A DNA stretch of 8,289 bases from Alphaproteobacteria bacterium (GTDB lineage Bacteria; Pseudomonadota; Alphaproteobacteria; GCA-2731375): assembly GCA_030746295.1 (NCBI GenBank), contig JASLMY010000223.1, forward strand, positions 1 to 8,289, in the 5' to 3' direction. The notes below the pieces were generated by a model, which was not told the origin of the DNA, ran no database searches, and saw nothing but the letters and a program-made list of their open reading frames with translations. Shown here piece by piece: positions 1 through 8,289 of this stretch. The position numbers and the translations under genes are program-made. Position 1 is the stretch's first letter; each line of letters opens with the position of its first letter.

Positions 1-21
1 GTGGCGGATTTTTGCTCCGCC
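1..21 (+). repeat. 21-bp repeat, copy A
   Basis: This copy matches 48-68 at 19 of 21 positions by eye, differing only at bases 5 and 7. Within it, GGCGGA (3-8) and TCCGCC (16-21) are inverted around TTTTTGC. The A/T core stands out against the GC-rich surroundings. It is probably a transposase-binding site of the putative IS21-type end. Confidence 0.7.
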
Positions 22-47
22 CGCAGCCGGACATCCCAGCCGCCTCA

Positions 48-68
48 GTGGTGTATTTTTGCTCCGCC
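48..68 (+). repeat. 21-bp repeat, copy B
   Basis: This is the second copy of the 1-21 repeat, in direct orientation and offset by 47 bp. Its left arm has diverged (GGTGTA), so the inverted repeat seen in copy A is lost, but the TTTTTGCTCCGCC half is exact. It lies next to the presumed element terminus at about 75. Confidence 0.7.
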
Positions 69-82
69 GCTTACATCAGGGA

Positions 83-118
83 GTGAGGTCAAGTGCTGGC
101 ACCAGCCCAACGCCTCAC
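83..118. promoter_or_regulatory. Symmetric 36-bp dyad / hairpin upstream of the DUF3553 gene
   Basis: Two nested inverted repeats share one centre: GTGAGG (83-88) pairs with CCTCAC (113-118), and GCTGG (95-99) pairs with CCAGC (102-106). A mostly unpaired 6-nt symmetric bulge separates them. No T-tract follows, so it does not look like an intrinsic terminator. It lies 54 bp before the DUF3553 start, between the putative IS end and the formate dehydrogenase operon. An operator for a dimeric regulator or a 5' leader hairpin are both possible. No -35/-10 or sigma-54 promoter could be identified with confidence nearby. Confidence 0.4.
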
Positions 119-171
119 ATAGACTTGCCCGCCGGCACGAACGCCCGGACTGAATTGAAAGGCATGCGTCA

Positions 172-357
172 GTGTCGTTCGCAATCGTGCCCGGCGCCCT
201 AGTGCGCCATCCCGACGAGCCCGATTGGGGCTTGGGACAGGTGCAGTCAGTGATCGGTGCGCGGATCACCGTCAACTTCGAAGGTGCCGGCAAGGTCTTG
301 ATAAATGCCGATCACGTTGATCTGATCGTCGTCGAGGATCAACCCATGGCATGCTGA
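172..357 (+). CDS. DUF3553 family small protein
   Basis: This 61-aa protein matches my memory of the DUF3553 family (PF12073). That family is a short all-beta domain with the pattern PGxLVRHPDxPDWGxGQVQS, then a glycine turn, RITVNFExAGKxxIN and a final short strand. The match covers residues 7 to about 53, so the protein is full length for the family. The function is not established; similar small folds occur in nucleic-acid-associated proteins, which is only a hint. It starts at GTG, preceded by GAAAGG (157-162) with 9 nt spacing; the ATG at 164 is in another frame. Its stop lies 29 bp before the diaphorase start, and the same strand suggests co-transcription. No membrane segment, signal peptide or cysteine cluster is visible. 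Confidence 0.85.
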   Translation: MSFAIVPGALVRHPDEPDWGLGQVQSVIGARITVNFEGAGKVLINADHVDLIVVEDQPMAC

Positions 358-386
358 CCGCGGGACGAGGGGAACGGACGGCCAAC

Positions 387-2093
387 ATGAACAAGAACAA
401 TGGCATCGGTGGCGGTGCCGCCCACAGGACGCATCACCCTGGCGGCGGCGGACGGATGGGCCTTCGCCATCCCAAGGGCCGTCAGGTGACACCCGACGCC
501 CTAGCCGAAATTGGCGGGCTCTTGGACGAACGGCCGCGCGGGCCCGAGTTCCTGGTCGAGAACCTACACTTGATTCAGGACCGCTACGGCTGTCTTCGGA
601 CGGTGCATCTCGCCGCTCTCGCCGAGCACATGCGGCTTTCCATGGCTGCGGTCTGGGAGGTCGTGACCTTCTATCACAATTTCGATGTGGTGAAGGATGA
701 AGCCCCGGCACCACTGCCCACCGTTCGGGTCTGCGACAGCCTCAGCTGCGCCCTCGCCGGCGCGGCCGAGCTGAAGGCCGGACTAGCAGCTGGGCTCGGC
801 ACCGAGGTCCGCGTTACTCATGGCGCCTGCATGGGACGCTGCGACCAGGCGCCGGTGGCGCGGGTCGGTCAGAGTTTCGTCTCAAAGGCGACGGTGGCGC
901 GGGTCGAAGCCGCGCTCAAAGCCGGCGACGAAGCCTCATTGCCCGGCTACATCGATTTCGGGGCTTACCGAAAGGATGGCGGCTATCGCCTGCTGCAACG
1001 CTGTCACGCCGGCGACGAGAGCGGCGAGGCGATCATCGCCGCTCTCGAGGCTTGCGGGCTCAGGGGCCTCGGCGGTGCCGGCTTCCCGACCGGCATGAAG
1101 TGGCGCTTCGTCCGCCAGGCACCGGGTCCCAGGCTGATGGCCGTCAACGCCGACGAGAGCGAGCCCGGCACCTTCAAGGACCGCCATTTCCTGGTCACCG
1201 ATCCGCACCGCTTCATCGAGGGCATGCTGATCGGCGCCTTCGCCGTCGAGGCGGAAGCGATTTACATCTATCTCCGAGACGAGTACCCGGACGTCCGTCG
1301 CATTTTGGAGTCGGAGCTGGCACTGCTGGAAGACCTGACCTTGCATCTGCCGGAAATCTACCTCCGACGCGGGGCCGGCGCCTATATCTGCGGCGAGGAA
1401 TCCGCGATGCTGGAAAGCATCGAGGGCAAGCGCGGCCTCCCCCGCCACAAGCCACCCTTCCCCTCCGAAGTCGGCCTATTCGGCCAGCCGACGCTGATCA
1501 ACAACGTCGAGACGCTCTATTGGGTTCGTGACGTGGTCGAGCGCGGCGCGGAATGGTTCGATGCCCAAGGCCTCGACGGACACAAGGGAACCAAGAGCTA
1601 TTCCGTCTCCGGCCGCGTCAAGGAACCGGGGGTCAAGCTGGCGCCGGCCGGAATTACGCTGAACGATTTGATCGCGCAGCATTGCGGCGGCATGGCCGAC
1701 GGCCACAGCCTCAAGGCCTTCCTGCCGGGCGGCGCCTCGGGCGGCATCTTTCCCGCTCGCATGGCCAATTTGCCGCTCGATTTTGGCAGCTTCGAGCCAC
1801 ATGGCGGCTTCATCGGCTCGGCCGCCATCATCGTGCTGTCGGACCGTGACAGCGTCGCCGAGGCGGCGCTCAACTTGCTGCGGTTTTTCGAGGATGAAAG
1901 CTGCGGGCAATGTACACCCTGCCGAGTCGGCACCGAGAAGGCGGTGAAGTTGATGAGCGAGGCACATTGGAATCGCGAGGCGCTGGAGGACCTAGCCGGC
2001 GTCATGGCCGATGCCTCGATCTGCGGTCTCGGCCAAGCCGCGGCCAACCCGTTGCGCTCGGCGATGAAGTATTTCCCGGAGGAGCTGCCATGA
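387..2093 (+). CDS. fdh1B: NAD-dependent formate dehydrogenase, fused NuoE/NuoF-type beta (diaphorase) subunit
   Basis: This 568-aa cytoplasmic subunit passes electrons between the catalytic subunit and NAD+/NADH. It fuses a NuoE-like thioredoxin-fold domain (about residues 30-180) with [2Fe-2S] ligands C116, C121, C148 and C152 to a NuoF-like domain (about 190-565). The NuoF part shows the FMN/NAD glycine-rich stretch GLRGLGGAGFPTGMKW (224-239), NADESEPGTFKDR (254-266), GAGAYICGEES (330-340), and [4Fe-4S] ligands C506, C509, C512 (ESCGQCTPC) and C546. Separate FdsG and FdsB proteins do this job in Rhodobacter and Cupriavidus; the fused layout matches FDH1B of Methylorubrum extorquens. The ATG at 387 gives the usual short N-terminus before HPK-GRQVTP and has GAGGGGA at 367-373 (13 nt, rather long). 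Other in-frame starts are 351, overlapping the upstream stop, and 456. The stop overlaps the next gene as ATGA. Confidence 0.95.
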   Translation: MNKNNGIGGGAAHRTHHPGGGGRMGLRHPKGRQVTPDALAEIGGLLDERPRGPEFLVENLHLIQDRYGCLRTVHLAALAEHMRLSMAAVWEVVTFYHNFDVVKDEAPAPLPTVRVCDSLSCALAGAAELKAGLAAGLGTEVRVTHGACMGRCDQAPVARVGQSFVSKATVARVEAALKAGDEASLPGYIDFGAYRKDGGYRLLQRCHAGDESGEAIIAALEACGLRGLGGAGFPTGMKWRFVRQAPGPRLMAVNADESEPGTFKDRHFLVTDPHRFIEGMLIGAFAVEAEAIYIYLRDEYPDVRRILESELALLEDLTLHLPEIYLRRGAGAYICGEESAMLESIEGKRGLPRHKPPFPSEVGLFGQPTLINNVETLYWVRDVVERGAEWFDAQGLDGHKGTKSYSVSGRVKEPGVKLAPAGITLNDLIAQHCGGMADGHSLKAFLPGGASGGIFPARMANLPLDFGSFEPHGGFIGSAAIIVLSDRDSVAEAALNLLRFFEDESCGQCTPCRVGTEKAVKLMSEAHWNREALEDLAGVMADASICGLGQAAANPLRSAMKYFPEELP

Positions 2094-4858
2094 GCGACGC
2101 CGCCGGCGCCACCGACCAAGTGGTGTTCGAGCTCGACGGCCGCGAGGTCGCCGCCATGCCCGGCGAAAGCATCTGGCAAGCCGCGGCCCGCCAAGGCACG
2201 ACGATCCCGCATCTTTGCTATTCGACCCAAGCGACCTACCGCGCCGACGGCAACTGTCGTGCCTGCATGGTCGAGATCGAGGGCGAGCGGGTCCTCGCGG
2301 CCTCCTGCATTCGAAAACCCACAGCTGGTATGAAGGTGCGCATCGCCGGCCACCGTGCGGTTCAGGCCCGCGAGATGGTGATGGAGCTGCTGCTCTCCGA
2401 CCAACCGCCGCGCGAGGTGGCGCACGAGCCCGATTCCCGGCTTTGGCACTGGGCGGAGAAGCAAGGCGTACGCGAGAGCCGCTATCCGGCACGCCTGGCG
2501 CCGGCACCCGATTTCAGCCATCCAGCGATGGCCGTCAACTTGGATGCATGTATTCACTGCACCCTCTGCGTTCGGGCCTGCCGCGAGGTCCAGGTCAACG
2601 ACGTTATCGCCATGTCGGGACGAGGGGCGGAGGCACGCATCGTCTTCGACTTCGACGACCCCATGGGCGAGAGCACCTGCGTCGGTTGCGGCGAATGCGT
2701 CCAGGCCTGCCCGACCGGGGCGCTGATGCCGGCCGGCGATGTCGGCAAGGTTGCGCCCGACGCCTGCGTCAATTCGGTCTGCCCCTACTGCGGCGTCGGT
2801 TGCCAGCTCACCTTCAACGTCAAGGACGACAAGATCCTTTCGGTCGATGGCAGGCCCGGCCCCGCCAACCTGGGTCGGCTCTGCGTCAAGGGTCGCTTCG
2901 GCTTCGACTACGTCCACCACCCCCACCGCCTTACCCGGCCGATGCTGCGCAAGGAGGGCGTGCCCAAGGACGACGTCGAGATCGACCCGGCCGATCCCTG
3001 GAGTCATTTTCGCGAGGCCAGCTGGGAAGAGGCCCTAGATGCCGCGGCCCAGGGCCTCGCCCGGATCCGCGAGGCCGACGGCGGCCGGGCGCTGGCCGGC
3101 TTCGGCTCGGCCAAGGGCTCGAACGAGGAGGCCTATCTCTTCCAGAAGCTGGTCCGCACTGGATTCCACACCAACAACGTCGACCACTGCACCCGGCTCT
3201 GCCACGCGTCGTCGGTGGCGGCGCTGATGGAGACCATCGGCTCCGGCGCCGTCACCGCCCCCTTCACCGAGGCGGTCAATGCCGACGTCGTGCTGGTGAT
3301 CGGCTGCAATCCAGCGGTCAACCATCCGGTCGCCGCGACCTTCTTCAAGAACGCGGCCGAGCGCGGCGTCAGATTGATCGTCGCCGATCCCAGGGGTCAG
3401 GCCCTGAGCCGCCACGCCACCTGGATGCTGCAGCACAAGGCCGGTAGCGACGTCGCCCTGTTGAACGCGATGATGCACGTGATCGTCGCCGAGGGCCTGG
3501 TCGACCGCCAATATATCCAAGCCCATACCGAAGATTTCGAGGCCCTGGCCGCTCACTTGGACGCCTATTCGCCGGAGGCGATGGAGCCGGTCACCGGCGT
3601 TCCGCCGGCGGCGGTCCGCGCCTCGGCCCGGGCTTTCGCCACAGCCAAGGCGGCGATGGTGTTCTGGGGCATGGGCATATCGCAGCACGTGCACGGCACC
3701 GACAACGCCCGCTGCCTGATCTCGCTCTGCCTAATGTGCGGCCAGGTCGGGCGGCCGGGGACAGGGCTGCATCCGCTACGGGGTCAGAACAACGTCCAAG
3801 GCGCCTCCGACGCCGGCCTGATCCCGATCGTCTATCCCGACTACCAACCGGTCACCAACGATGCCGTGCGGGAGAAGTTTGAGGCCTTTTGGAACACCGA
3901 GCTCGATCCCGATGCCGGCCTCACCGTGGTCGAGATCACCGAGGCGATCCACGCCGGCGCGATCCGCGGCATGTACATCATGGGCGAGAACCCGGCGATG
4001 TCCGACCCCGACGTCGCACACGCCCGGGCGGCGCTGGCCAAGCTCGACCATCTGGTGGTGCAGGACCTGTTCCTGACCGAGACCGCCTGCTACGCCGACG
4101 TCGTCCTACCGGCCTCGGCCTGGCCCGAAAAGGACGGCACCGTCACCAACACCAACCGCCAAGTGCAACTCGGACGCCGGGCCCTGGGCCTGCCGGGCGA
4201 GGCTCGTCAGGACCTCTGGATCATCCAAGAGATTGCTCGGCGTCTCGGTCTAGAGTGGCAGTACGACCACGCCAGAGACGTCTTCGGCGAGATGCGCCAG
4301 GTGATGGCGTCGATCCATGGCATCACCTGGGAGCGTCTGGAAGCCGAGGACGCGGTCACCTATCCCTGCCTCGAAGAAGGCGATCCGGGTGACCCCGTGA
4401 TCTTCGCCGACGGCTTTCCAACGGCCTCCGGTCGCGGCAAGTTCGTCCCTGCCGCCATCATTCCACCGGACGAGGAGCCCGATTCCGACTATCCCTTCGT
4501 GCTGACCACGGGCCGGGTCCTGGAGCACTGGCATACCGGCGCCATGACCCGCCGTGCCGAGGTCCTGGACCGGATCGAGCCGGAGCCGCTGGTGCAGATG
4601 GCGCCAGCCGACGTCGCCCGGCTGGGCCTGGACGGCGCCGACAAGGTCCGTGTCGCCAGCCGGCGGGGCGCGATCGAGCTCGCCATCCGCAGCGATGCCG
4701 CCGTGCCGGCGGGCCTGGTCTTCATTCCCTTCTGCTTCGCCGAGGCAGCAGCGAACCTGCTGACCAACGCCGCCCTCGATCCGTTCGGCAAGATCCCGGA
4801 GGTCAAGTTCTGCGCCGTCAAGGTGGAACCGGCCGGCGAGGCTCAGGCGGCGGAGTGA
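2090..4858 (+). CDS. fdh1A: NAD-dependent formate dehydrogenase, catalytic alpha subunit (Mo/W-bis-MGD)
   Basis: This 922-aa subunit interconverts formate and CO2 at a Mo- or W-bis-MGD centre. In order it has: a NuoG-type [2Fe-2S] domain (C43, C56, C59, C73); a two-cluster ferredoxin domain (C154/C157/C160/C164 and C197/C200/C203/C207); the molybdopterin-oxidoreductase [4Fe-4S] site (C231, C234, C238, C265); and the catalytic domain. The metal ligand is Cys371 followed by His372 in HCTRLCHASS, so it is not a selenoenzyme. Arg564 in HPLRGQNNVQGASD sits 193 residues later, the same spacing as U140 to R333 in E. coli FdhF. The C-terminal molybdopterin-dinucleotide domain includes TGRVLEHWHTG. 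There is no Tat signal, so it is cytoplasmic. GGAGGAG (2078-2084) lies 5 nt before the ATG. The His-x3-Cys-x2-Cys cluster segment of NuoG/FdsA is absent, as I recall for tungsten FDH1A of M. extorquens. Sequence alone cannot decide W versus Mo. Equivalent names are fdsA and fdhF. Confidence 0.96.
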   Translation: MSDAAGATDQVVFELDGREVAAMPGESIWQAAARQGTTIPHLCYSTQATYRADGNCRACMVEIEGERVLAASCIRKPTAGMKVRIAGHRAVQAREMVMELLLSDQPPREVAHEPDSRLWHWAEKQGVRESRYPARLAPAPDFSHPAMAVNLDACIHCTLCVRACREVQVNDVIAMSGRGAEARIVFDFDDPMGESTCVGCGECVQACPTGALMPAGDVGKVAPDACVNSVCPYCGVGCQLTFNVKDDKILSVDGRPGPANLGRLCVKGRFGFDYVHHPHRLTRPMLRKEGVPKDDVEIDPADPWSHFREASWEEALDAAAQGLARIREADGGRALAGFGSAKGSNEEAYLFQKLVRTGFHTNNVDHCTRLCHASSVAALMETIGSGAVTAPFTEAVNADVVLVIGCNPAVNHPVAATFFKNAAERGVRLIVADPRGQALSRHATWMLQHKAGSDVALLNAMMHVIVAEGLVDRQYIQAHTEDFEALAAHLDAYSPEAMEPVTGVPPAAVRASARAFATAKAAMVFWGMGISQHVHGTDNARCLISLCLMCGQVGRPGTGLHPLRGQNNVQGASDAGLIPIVYPDYQPVTNDAVREKFEAFWNTELDPDAGLTVVEITEAIHAGAIRGMYIMGENPAMSDPDVAHARAALAKLDHLVVQDLFLTETACYADVVLPASAWPEKDGTVTNTNRQVQLGRRALGLPGEARQDLWIIQEIARRLGLEWQYDHARDVFGEMRQVMASIHGITWERLEAEDAVTYPCLEEGDPGDPVIFADGFPTASGRGKFVPAAIIPPDEEPDSDYPFVLTTGRVLEHWHTGAMTRRAEVLDRIEPEPLVQMAPADVARLGLDGADKVRVASRRGAIELAIRSDAAVPAGLVFIPFCFAEAAANLLTNAALDPFGKIPEVKFCAVKVEPAGEAQAAE

Positions 4859-4931
4859 GGCGACGACCCGCTCGGATGTGACGATTTCGTTATTTTTCTT
4901 TTCCGCGTCGCTTTGTTGAAATGGTGACAAA

Positions 4932-4937
4932 GGGAGG
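4932..4937 (+). promoter_or_regulatory. Ribosome binding site that fixes the start of the first exported cysteine protein
   Basis: GGGAGG lies 7 nt before the ATG at 4945. It falls inside the reading frame that would begin at the ATG at 4921. It therefore favours 4945, which also puts a clean signal peptide directly at the N-terminus. Confidence 0.8.
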
Positions 4938-4944
4938 CACGGCT

Positions 4945-5373
4945 ATGAGAATTCTCTACGTCTTGGCCCTGACGGCACTACTGACGATCGGCGGTGGATC
5001 GGCGTATGCCGCTAAGGAGGGTCAGATCCGCGTCACCGGCGAGGTGATCGACGCCTGGTGCTATCTCTCCGAGATCATGTATCCGCTCGGCACGGCGCAT
5101 CACCAGTGTGCCCTTTGGTGCGCCGTCGGCGGCATTCCGGTCGGCATCCTCGACGATGCCGGTGTCGTTCACATCCTGCTCGAGATGCCCGGTGAGACGG
5201 CCAACGTCCAACCTGAAGGCGTGCTTCGCATCCAGAGCCACCGCGTCACCTTCGAGGGCCGCGCGATCGAGCGGGACGGCGTCAAGTACCTCCTCGTCGG
5301 CAAGATGATCGAGGATGCCGGCATCGTCAATCAGACCCACGAGGAACACGGCATTCAGCCCTTCGGCGACTAG
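4945..5373 (+). CDS. Exported small cysteine protein, hypothetical (paralogue of the next gene)
   Basis: This 142-aa protein has a Sec-type signal peptide: MR, a hydrophobic core to about residue 16, and probable cleavage after AYA at residue 22. The mature part, about 120 aa, starts with a strand-rich segment. It carries C39 (VIDAWC), His52-His53 and C55-x3-C59 (HHQCALWC), followed by GGIPVGILDDAG. Later strands include HRVTFEGRAIERDGVKYLLV. The layout suggests a small beta-barrel, possibly OB-like; that is inference. I recall uncharacterised secreted proteins with the same CY...HxxCAxxC...GxPVGxL signature, but no proven function. C-x3-C without a following His is not a standard c-type heme site, so metal binding or disulfides are more likely. 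The gene begins 86 bp after the alpha subunit stop, in the same direction. That gap is AT-richer (about 4884-4903) and could hold a promoter, though none is clear. Confidence 0.88.
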   Translation: MRILYVLALTALLTIGGGSAYAAKEGQIRVTGEVIDAWCYLSEIMYPLGTAHHQCALWCAVGGIPVGILDDAGVVHILLEMPGETANVQPEGVLRIQSHRVTFEGRAIERDGVKYLLVGKMIEDAGIVNQTHEEHGIQPFGD

Positions 5374-5403
5374 TGGATAAAGACCGGGATCGGAGACCAG
5401 GAT

Positions 5404-5928
5404 ATGCGCAGCTTGATCCTCATGATGGCCCTTCTCACCGCCCTTGCGGCACCCGCGCAAGCGGCCGAGGAATGGGGCGTTCCGGGTGAGAAGATCGCCC
5501 GTTTCGAAGCCAAGGTGGTCGATATCCTCTGCGAGTTGACCGGCAATTGCCCCGAGGCCTGCGGCGCCGGCGCCCGTCAGCTTGGCCTCCTAAAGGACGA
5601 CGGGACGCTCGTGCTGGCGATCAAGAACAACTACCCCTTCACCGGTGCCACCCGGGACCTGACCGACTTCTGCGGCAAGCGGGTCGTCGCCGACGGTCTG
5701 ATGATCGAGAATCGCGGCACCCGCTTCTTCAACCTGCAATTCGTCCGTCTGGCGCCCGACGGCAAATGGCGCCGCGCCAATCGCTGGATCGACCGCTGGG
5801 CCGCCGACCAGGGCGTGGCTGCCGACAGCGAGACCGCCAAGCAGTGGTTCCGCAACGACCCCACGGTGAAGGCGATCCAGAAAGAAGAAGGCGGAAAGCT
5901 CGGTATCCCCGGCCTCAAGGCCGAGTAG
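5404..5928 (+). CDS. Exported small cysteine protein, hypothetical (divergent paralogue of the previous gene)
   Basis: This 174-aa protein has a signal peptide with probable cleavage after AQA at residue 20. The mature protein repeats the neighbour's plan: KVVDILC (C43), C49-x3-C53, then six residues and LGLLKDDG. A strand and an extra C90 in DFCGKRVVADG follow, then an RGTRFFNLQFVRL strand. Spacing from the C-x3-C pair to the Gly-Leu-Leu segment is identical in both proteins, which supports common ancestry. The histidine pair of the first protein is missing and the C1-C2 loop is about ten residues shorter. A C-terminal extension (about 120-174), rich in Trp, Arg and Lys, is unique to this one. 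GGAG (5392-5395) stands 8 nt before the ATG, and only 30 bp separates it from the previous stop, so the two are probably co-transcribed. Function unknown; a periplasmic metal or redox partner is a guess. Confidence 0.87.
   Translation: MRSLILMMALLTALAAPAQAAEEWGVPGEKIARFEAKVVDILCELTGNCPEACGAGARQLGLLKDDGTLVLAIKNNYPFTGATRDLTDFCGKRVVADGLMIENRGTRFFNLQFVRLAPDGKWRRANRWIDRWAADQGVAADSETAKQWFRNDPTVKAIQKEEGGKLGIPGLKAE
5910..5923. other. Short GC hairpin at the convergence point
   Basis: CGGCCT and AGGCCG form a perfect 6-bp stem around CA, directly before the stop of the second cysteine protein. No T-tract follows in either direction. It may slow or end transcription where the two operons meet, but it is not a textbook terminator. 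In so GC-rich a sequence it could also be chance. Confidence 0.25.
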
Positions 5929-5933
5929 TCCGC

Positions 5934-6566
5934 TCAACCTAGTAGCCGCTCCGCCTCCGCCAGATCCTCGGGCCGGTTGGCGTTGAAGAAGGGGTCGATG
6001 GGGTCGGTTGGCCAAGCGACCTCGACGACGCCATGGCGCCGGGTCCAGAGATCGATCTTGCGGAGCCCCTCGTCGGCCAGGGCCCGGCGCAAATTGTCGG
6101 CGAGGTCGAGCCGCCAAAGCCCAACCACGGGGTGGCTGCGGCCAGCCGACGCAGCACAAGCGAGCGGTGCGCCTTCGGCCACGGCCTCGCGATAGAGGCG
6201 CGCGACCAAATCCCTCGGCAGGAACGGCGCATCGGTCGGAAAGCTGGCGAGCCATTGGGCGCCGGGCGAGTTCTCGCGTACCTGGTCCATCGCCGCCAGA
6301 ACGCCGGCCAGCGGTCCGGCGAAACCCTCGATCTGGTCCGCGACGACGGCCAAGCCAAAGGCCCCGAAGCGGGCCGGGTCGCCGTTGGCGTTCAGGATCA
6401 AATGGCCAACTTGTGGCTGCACCCGTTCGATGACGTGGCTCAAGAGAGGCCGGCCGGCGAGCGGCCGCAAGCACTTGTCACCGCCGCCCATGCGCCTGGC
6501 GAGGCCGCCAGCGAGCAACACGCCGACGATCGCGTCCTTGTTCGGGGCGTCGATATCAGGCGGCAT
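5934..6566 (-). CDS. mobA: Molybdenum cofactor guanylyltransferase MobA
   Basis: This 210-aa cytoplasmic enzyme transfers GMP from GTP to molybdopterin, giving the MGD cofactor that the bis-MGD formate dehydrogenase upstream needs. The nucleotide-binding signature GVLLAGGLARRMGGGDK (15-31) is intact. It is followed by PLAGRPLL (35-42), LILNANGD (57-63), the metal-binding-type segment SFPTDAPFLP (108-117, Asp112), GRSHPVVGLW (142-151) and the C-terminal FFNANRPEDL (193-202). The length is normal for MobA. Its ATG lies inside the end of fdhD (11-bp overlap), so translation is probably coupled and no strong separate RBS is seen. It runs convergently into the second cysteine protein with only 5 bp between the stops. 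Confidence 0.95.
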   Translation of the reverse strand: MPPDIDAPNKDAIVGVLLAGGLARRMGGGDKCLRPLAGRPLLSHVIERVQPQVGHLILNANGDPARFGAFGLAVVADQIEGFAGPLAGVLAAMDQVRENSPGAQWLASFPTDAPFLPRDLVARLYREAVAEGAPLACAASAGRSHPVVGLWRLDLADNLRRALADEGLRKIDLWTRRHGVVEVAWPTDPIDPFFNANRPEDLAEAERLLG

Positions 6567-7437
6567 CGTCGGCGCGGGCGGCCTTGCGGCCGACGGCGCG
6601 GGGCTCGTCGGCGACCCGCTCCGGATCGGCGTCGTAGCGGAGCCGCTCGGCGCCGGCCAGGCAGACGAAACGCTTGCCGCGGGCCCGGCCGACCAGCGTC
6701 AGGTCGGCCTGTCGGGCCAGATCCACCCCCCAGGCCGTGAAGCCCGAGCGCGAGACCAGAATCGGCACGCGCATCCGCACGCACTTGATCACCATCTCCG
6801 AGGTCAGCCGCCCGGTGGTATAGAAGATCTTGTCCTCCGGTCCGACGTCGTTCCGATACATCCAGCCGGCGATCTTGTCGATGGCGTTGTGGCGGCCGAC
6901 GTCTTCCATATAGACGAGCGGCTTGTCGCCGCGGCAGAGGACGCAGCCGTGAATGGCGCCGGCGGCGAGGTAGAGGCTGGGCTCGGTGTTGATCGCCCGG
7001 GTCAGGGCATAGAGCCAGGAAGTCTTGAGCACCGCCTCCTTCGACAGCTCGGCCTGTTCGAAGCTCTCCATGACGTCGCCGAAGACGGTGCCCTGGGCAC
7101 AGCCGGAAGTCAGCGTCTTCTTCTTGAGCTTCTCCTCGAAGTCGGTCTCGCGCTCGGTGCGCACCACGACGACGTCGAGCTCTTCGTCAACATCAACGCC
7201 CGTGATCTCGTCATCGTCGGAGAGCATATTCTGATTCAGCAGATAGCCGATGGCGAGGTACTCGGGATAGTCGCCGATCGTCATCATGGTGACGATCTCC
7301 TGCCCGTTCAGGAATAAGGTCAGCGGCCGTTCGACAACGACGTCGAGCACCACCGCCTTGCCGTCATGATCTGTGCCGGCGAGACGCTCGGTCAGGCGCG
7401 GGTCGTCCGGCCTGGGTTTCACCGAAAACTCGTCCAT
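6556..7437 (-). CDS. fdhD: Formate dehydrogenase accessory sulfurtransferase FdhD
   Basis: This 293-aa protein should carry sulfur from a cysteine desulfurase to the Mo/W-bis-MGD cofactor, which is needed for formate dehydrogenase activity. Family landmarks are the N-terminal RPLTLFLNGQEI and IGDYPEYLAIGYLL (55-68), then EDVGRHNAIDKIAG (178-191), TTGRLTSEMV (207-216) and VSRSGFTAWGVDLA (228-241). The loop that holds the Cys-x2-Cys pair in E. coli FdhD (C121/C124) reads TSGCAQGT here, with one cysteine, C113. A C165-x2-C168 pair appears instead in IHGCVLC. The ATG at 7437 has GAGG only 1 nt upstream, too close for a normal ribosome site. An in-frame TTG at 7473, with GAGG 6 nt upstream (7480-7483), would give 305 aa and is a credible alternative. 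The gene follows the permease by about 85 bp and overlaps mobA. Confidence 0.95.
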   Translation of the reverse strand: MDEFSVKPRPDDPRLTERLAGTDHDGKAVVLDVVVERPLTLFLNGQEIVTMMTIGDYPEYLAIGYLLNQNMLSDDDEITGVDVDEELDVVVVRTERETDFEEKLKKKTLTSGCAQGTVFGDVMESFEQAELSKEAVLKTSWLYALTRAINTEPSLYLAAGAIHGCVLCRGDKPLVYMEDVGRHNAIDKIAGWMYRNDVGPEDKIFYTTGRLTSEMVIKCVRMRVPILVSRSGFTAWGVDLARQADLTLVGRARGKRFVCLAGAERLRYDADPERVADEPRAVGRKAARADDAA

Positions 7438-7522
7438 GCCTCGAATATGGGGCAGCCGAACGCCCGTGGCCAAGAAAAACCTCGGGCCGGCCGGATTGCG
7501 TGATGGTGAGCCGCAAGAGCTT

Positions 7523-8289
7523 TCAGACGACAGCGAGCTGGTAGGCGTAGCCGATGGCGACCGAGCCAACGACCGCCAGGCCCAGGTACCAGAAGAAGAC
7601 CGGCAGCCGGACCAGGGCGAATACGGCGATCGCGGCGGGTATCGAAGACACAGCACCTGCCGTCATGAAGGCCATCGCCGCGCCTGGCTGCATGCCGAGG
7701 TCGATCATCCCGCTCATCAGCGGTATGGCGGCGAAGCTGTTGAGATAGGCCGGCATGCCGATGAGGGCGGCCAACGGGATCACCAGGAAGTTGTCGCCGC
7801 CCAACAGCCCGGTCACGGTCTCAGGCGGGACGTAGGCCAGCATCAGGCTCTCCAGGACGAAAGCGAGCGTCAGCCATTTGCCGAGAAACGCTAAGGTGGC
7901 GAGACTTTCCCTTGCGAAGACCTGACGGCGCTCCCGCTCTTCCCAAAACCGCCACTTGACCTCGTCACTACCGACCTTCGTCGTCTCGCAGCCCGTGCCA
8001 CAACCACCGCCGCAATCGGCGCCGACTCCGGCTTTGAGCGGGTTCGCAAAGCCGCCCGCGCGCATCAACGCATGGGTGGCGAAGCCGCCCAGCAGGCCGA
8101 TGAAGATGGCGGCGATCGTCTTGCCGACGGCGAAGGTAAGGCCCAACGGTCCGGCGGTCAGGAAGAAGACCTCCGGATCCATGATCGGCGAGGCTAGCCA
8201 GAAGGCCATCACCGGCGCCAGCGGCACGCCCATGGCCAGCAGGGCCGCGATCACCGGGATGACGCCGCAGGAGCAGAAGGGCGACAGCG
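7523..8289 (-). CDS. PF03773 (DUF318/ArsP-like) membrane permease, N-terminus cut by the window edge
   Basis: About 254 codons are visible; the reading frame continues past the right edge, so the true start is outside. The visible part opens with LSPFCSCGVIPV, the hallmark of the PF03773 permeases, and continues with AFWLASPIMDPE and, near the end, MPAYLNSFAAIPLMSG and FMTAGAVSSIPA. About six hydrophobic segments are visible. A hydrophilic loop after the second or third one contains CGGGCGTGC (three cysteines, each separated by three residues) followed by a charged stretch, WRFWEERERR. Members include ArsP, which exports trivalent organoarsenicals; most are uncharacterised. The substrate here is unknown. 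The position ahead of fdhD and mobA on one strand suggests a shared transcript, but that may be incidental. Confidence 0.88.
   Translation of the reverse strand, partial: LSPFCSCGVIPVIAALLAMGVPLAPVMAFWLASPIMDPEVFFLTAGPLGLTFAVGKTIAAIFIGLLGGFATHALMRAGGFANPLKAGVGADCGGGCGTGCETTKVGSDEVKWRFWEERERRQVFARESLATLAFLGKWLTLAFVLESLMLAYVPPETVTGLLGGDNFLVIPLAALIGMPAYLNSFAAIPLMSGMIDLGMQPGAAMAFMTAGAVSSIPAAIAVFALVRLPVFFWYLGLAVVGSVAIGYAYQLAVV

Follow-up and report, generated by a model that had tools for sequence, protein, structure and literature searches.

What do two small, probably exported cysteine proteins do directly behind a formate dehydrogenase operon? The question is raised by an alphaproteobacterial sequence of 8,289 nucleotides (GCA-2731375 lineage; assembly GCA_030746295.1, contig JASLMY010000223.1, positions 1 to 8,289; this whole stretch is called the window here), in which the gene for a 142-aa protein, P1 (4945..5373, +, ATG at 4945), is followed by that for a 174-aa protein, P2 (5404..5928, +, ATG at 5404, stop at 5926-5928). 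The initial annotation read them as a tandem pair of exported paralogs attached to a formate dehydrogenase locus and specialised as partners. We find that they are indeed paralogs and that across genomes they are commonly followed by a gene for SCO1/SenC, here called SCO. The pair probably handles copper or protects thiols in the periplasm, rather than serving formate dehydrogenase.

Both open reading frames (ORFs) lie where they had been placed, and the sequence features claimed for them hold on re-inspection. Each protein begins with a hydrophobic leader that, read by eye, has a plausible AxA end, consistent with the signal peptides proposed. P1 has V-I-D-x2-C39 where P2 has V-V-D-x2-C43; C55-x3-C59 in P1 corresponds to C49-x3-C53 in P2; and in both the CxxxC is followed, after exactly six residues, by a related segment (VGILDDAG in P1, LGLLKDDG in P2). 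P1 holds three cysteines in all and a His-His, H52-H53; P2 has an additional cysteine, C90, and a basic tail, predicted to be helical, that contains W122, W128, W132 and W148. By BLASTP the two proteins resemble each other weakly (23% identity, E 0.005), whereas a comparison of full profiles aligns them at 95.8% probability. After the leaders had been cut by profile position (83 P1 rows, 81 P2 rows), the profiles still aligned at 94.6% probability (E 6e-8), compared with at most 2.8% in 60 column-shuffled controls. P1 and P2 are thus distant relatives and, as judged from their profiles, real paralogs.

What they conserve differs. C39, M45, H52, C55, W58 and C59 of P1 are invariant (83/83 rows), and W38 and H53 are kept in 82. 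P2 keeps C43 and C49 throughout (81/81), C53 and W148 in 80 rows, and C90 and W132 in 79; W128 is poorly kept (14/81). At the site corresponding to that of P1, neither His nor Met is conserved in the P2 alignment. Among the 120 homologs listed for each protein, the pattern WC-x5-M-x6-HH-x-C-x2-WC is kept in 119 for P1, the exception (P0026) being a protein of 98 aa, and the cysteine pattern of P2 is kept in 114.

A database search returned 1158 relatives of P1 and 608 of P2, and no Pfam domain was found on the 120 of each that are listed. For gene context we kept 80 loci out of 95 places confirmed in a single genome-collection scan, and counted P1, P2 and SCO on six-frame ORFs because a simple gene caller failed to find P1 in 11 of 81 sources. 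Flank length varies among these loci, 13 of which have less than 3 kb before P1; they are not independent of one another, and counts taken from them tell gene position, not function. P2 follows P1 in 78 of the 80; of the other two, L064 stops at P1 and L047 has room for P2 but lacks it. In L043 and L050 the unit is doubled in tandem (P1-P2-P1-P2). Among whole genomes of the class, 19 of 289 have a match (E<=1e-3), strong in ten and weak only in nine, and all nine weak-only matches are longer, membrane-type proteins. Matches were also found in 10 of 398 genomes of the phylum (E<=0.01; nine strong) and in 9 of 96 relatives of the genome that carries L001, the locus closest to the window (E<=1e-5; seven strong). 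A tblastn search of P1 and P2 against 72,556 plasmid records gave no match. The proposal of specialised rather than redundant proteins is therefore borne out in so far as the two are paralogous, occur together and differ in their conserved residues; its other half, the tie to formate dehydrogenase, fared differently.

The attachment is real in the window, where P1 and P2 adjoin the fdhB and fdhA genes, and it recurs in L001, which would be expected if they served formate dehydrogenase alone as periplasmic accessories. Conservation of this neighbourhood was one of the checks named in the initial annotation, and the conservation is absent: homologs of fdhA and fdhB stand beside P1 in 1 of the 80 loci, namely L001, which forms one clade with the window in the P1 tree (support 97; the tree rests on few columns, and its midpoint root is for drawing only). 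In L031 there is just a distant fdhA match (142 bits), more than 4 kb from P1 and on the opposite strand. Because the adjacency outside the window is confined to this sister locus, we reject the tie. Moreover, unlike P1 and P2, the formate dehydrogenase subunits, which appear to be of the NAD-linked, soluble type, lack an export leader on visual inspection. Neighbourhood counts and tree together largely refute an accessory role, which we consider highly improbable, and the pair probably reached its place behind the formate dehydrogenase operon by local rearrangement.

The neighbour that does recur is SCO. P1-P2 is immediately followed, on its own strand, by an ORF for SCO1/SenC in 47 of the 80 loci, the profile match of that ORF starting 0-113 nt past P2; another six loci end too soon, and 27 have room for it but are without it. 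Two of these ORFs were scanned, and PF02630 matched them at E 2e-51 and 1e-39; PF00578 matched as well. As SCO matches average about three per genome (38 matches, 36 of them over the cut-off, in 13 genomes), the P1-P2-SCO adjacency is far above chance. It is found on both sides of the deepest split in the midpoint-rooted P1 tree (8 of 12 versus 38 of 68 rows; support 100). A strict pattern finds the CxxxC and His ligands of SCO intact in 42 of the 47 neighbours, and inspection by eye finds them in the remaining five. Conserved adjacency to an intact SCO is thus seen across loci but not in the window itself, where the pair has no SCO neighbour; L001's genome does contain SCO matches, none of them beside P1. 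We also viewed 16 further loci with the simple gene caller. Six of these repeat counted loci (L082, L083, L086, L087, L107 and L113), and among the ten new ones the caller placed a SCO next to the pair in five (L084, L085, L088, L102 and L104); in the other five no SCO was called, owing in part to the end of the locus or to failure of the caller on P1 or P2. In L088 a rhodanese-like protein (9353-9826, +) comes after P1-P2-SCO.

How copper is delivered to SCO proteins, and how it is kept reduced for them, is only partly known in many bacteria. P1-P2 offers a nearly always paired, uncharacterised and probably exported candidate for a SCO partner in alphaproteobacteria, and reading the pair through SCO would replace a misleading formate dehydrogenase context. 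P1 and P2 share the CxxxC spacing with SCO1/SenC, their commonest gene neighbour. We rejected common descent as the source of that likeness: profile alignment to SCO gave hhalign probabilities of 0.1% and 0.4%, PF02630 matched neither protein, and the predicted models of both are OB-like, not thioredoxin-like.

The two OB-like models arrange their core elements in the same order, and their structural matches include shared chains (among them 3k0y, 4pqx and 8b2n). In the P1 model, C39, M45, H52/H53, C55 and C59 fall in a helical stretch between strands 1 and 2, where they would form a putative metal site. Family searches assign neither protein: Pfam and NCBIfam scans gave no family above cut-off for P1 or P2, no Pfam family matched P1 at E<=0.1, and below-cut-off matches to LpfA (P1) and YCII (P2) were set aside. 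So too were the weak matches from sequence searches of the PDB, which fell on unrelated-looking molecules (best E 0.022). Pfam and PDB sequence searches yielded no match of P1 or P2 to a curated copper-chaperone family. No single family was prominent in the structure search, and the absence of CusF, the periplasmic copper chaperone of E. coli, from the matches listed carries no weight. None of the top-ranked literature matches names such a pair in its title or the opening of its abstract.

The weak P1 matches extend the site beyond the pair. They are membrane-type proteins that hold a P1 domain, preceded by a strongly hydrophobic segment, and in all 12 examined the C, M, H, C and C of the site are present. 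These membrane-type proteins have 674 relatives, some labelled Acidobacteriota, Blastocatellia or Myxococcota, and the family pattern, C-x4-M-x7-H-x2-C-x3-C, is kept in 118 of the 120 relatives listed. The family profile aligns with P1 at 98.4% probability and with P2 at an unsupported 2.7%; a P2-like paralog relation to the family is therefore not supported, and P1 is the only link between P2 and the family. The domain is thus homologous to P1, but the membrane-type proteins have a single His, the hydrophobic segment and an extra region before the domain, and other neighbours. Two of them were scanned (including L072:2381-3142, -) and matched no Pfam family above cut-off; DUF5818 and DUF5666 gave weak, sub-threshold matches (E 0.014 and 0.016) before the P1-like domain of the L072 relative, and none in P1 or P2. 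The Cys/Met/His site of P1 is accordingly common to a much wider, unnamed family.

The neighbours of these relatives suggest another role. In 12 of 12 membrane-type loci (L072, L073 and L089-L098) the relative has, immediately next to it and on its own strand, a homolog of the L094 ferric-reductase/Rieske protein; Pfam scans of two of these homologs, those of L072 and L094, confirmed the Ferric_reduct and Rieske domains. P1 and P2 could then be accessories of a membrane electron-transfer module, their Cys/His/Met site being a structural zinc or electron-transfer site. Yet the soluble pair commonly neighbours SCO rather than such a complex, and where the soluble pair and a membrane-type relative occur in one locus, as in L072 and L073, more than 5 kb separates them. 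We consider this role improbable.

On balance, we favour a dedicated periplasmic copper- or thiol-handling pair of predicted OB-fold proteins with SCO as its partner, in which P1 would be the metal-binding half and P2 its redox partner with four cysteines. Conserved soft ligands, a predicted OB-like fold, an export-type leader and the SCO neighbour together point to periplasmic copper handling, and the cysteine-only site of P2 to a redox or hand-over role. P1 would bind a soft metal, Cu(I) being the likeliest, through C39, C55, C59, H52/H53 and M45. P2, with its CxxxC, two more cysteines and no His or Met, would act as the thiol/disulfide or metal-transfer partner of P1, and the pair would maintain either copper or the reduced SCO thiols in usable form in the periplasm. 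Where SCO is encoded directly downstream, it would be the probable partner. A metal relay, as envisaged in the initial annotation, or a redox pair stays plausible, all the more given SCO as a neighbour.

CusF offers the closest comparison. It has an OB fold and binds metal through Met, His and Trp; the site of P1, by analogy, would use Cys, His and Met instead. We found no sequence relation between the two (P1 has no Pfam match), and P1 is paired with a paralog and SCO, not with the CusCBA pump. The likeness lies in small size, an export-type leader, a model that suggests an OB fold, soft-metal-type residues and a connection to MsrP, which is reported to restore oxidised Met of CusF in E. coli (PMC9302797). 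That precedent gives meaning to an MsrP-like gene found downstream of the pair in 8 of the 80 loci, a count from ORF and gene clusters that may be low; the one scanned is PF00174, and MsrP may be the right name for it, the reading being our own. In L072 and L073, MsrA genes are found in the vicinity of the membrane-type relative; the L072 one matches PF01625.

Taken together, the MsrP-like and MsrA genes suggest oxidative damage, and with it the main alternative to copper handling: a thiol-disulfide or peroxide-protection pair for which SCO acts as a thioredoxin-like reductase, any metal being incidental. Such a pair would make sense of the CxxxC and further conserved cysteines of P1 and P2, of a P2 site without conserved His or Met, and of a SCO with a thioredoxin-type fold (the PF00578 match). 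It leaves the His-His and Met of P1, and the C/M/H/C/C of its distant relatives, with no obvious use in disulfide exchange, and we regard it as rather doubtful.

A metal-handling pair also finds company in cysteine-repeat ORFs with export-type leaders and the repeat NPCAAK (CNPCAAK), which look metallothionein-like from their sequences. These occur in 18 of the 80 loci, always upstream of P1 and no more than about 3 kb from it; elsewhere in those 18 loci there were none at the threshold used. In 13 loci they are on the same strand as P1 (L008, L010, L013, L014, L022, L025, L034, L037, L041, L052, L054, L061 and L064) and in five on the opposite strand (L005, 7713-8843, -; L007; L009; L015; L045). 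Three of the five opposite-strand proteins were scanned, and all three carry a fused cytochrome P460 domain; of the remaining ORFs, that of L007 is truncated where its contig stops and that of L045 ends after the repeats. The NPCAAK proteins without a P460 part from L010, L014 and L052 matched no Pfam family. Histidine kinases and response regulators likewise appear repeatedly near the pair, and the MsrP-like genes, NPCAAK proteins and two-component regulators fit control under copper or oxidant stress.

More ambitiously, and tentatively, P1-P2-SCO may be an undescribed periplasmic copper-trafficking system. The Cys/His/Met half would carry Cu(I), the four-Cys half would keep Cu(I) or SCO reduced, the NPCAAK proteins would provide metallothionein-like buffering and MsrP the upkeep, with P1 representing a wide, unnamed metal-binding superfamily. 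We hold this to be possible, at less than even chances.

Other neighbours are more local. In the five loci with opposite-strand NPCAAK ORFs, P1 is immediately preceded by an FGE/SUMF1-like protein, and a YeeE/YedE-type sulphur transporter is encoded downstream on the opposite strand, followed in L005, L007 and L015 by a DUF302 gene; these names rest on Pfam scans of the L005 genes. A cytochrome c lies near the pair in seven closely related loci, and a cupredoxin upstream of it in one, L027.

In the window, the pair follows a fused NuoE/NuoF-type, fdhB-like subunit (351..2093, +; PF01257 and PF01512) and fdhA, the formate dehydrogenase alpha subunit (1910..4858, +; TIGR01591 at 740 bits, above cut-off, with Pfam support), whose true start is probably near 2090. 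The 86-nt gap between fdhA and P1 (4859..4944, +) contains a ribosome-binding-site-like AAAGGGAGG a short way 5' of the P1 ATG, and a scan of this strand found no terminator-like sites. A weak sigma-70-like match at 4924-4952 (+) overlaps the P1 start codon. Convergent with P2 lie mobA (5934..6566, -; TIGR02665, above cut-off) and then fdhD (6556..7656, -; PF02634 and TIGR00129), the true start of which is probably near 7440. Past these two genes, also on the minus strand, is an ArsP-type permease, into which the listed fdhD ORF runs at 7523-7656 (-).
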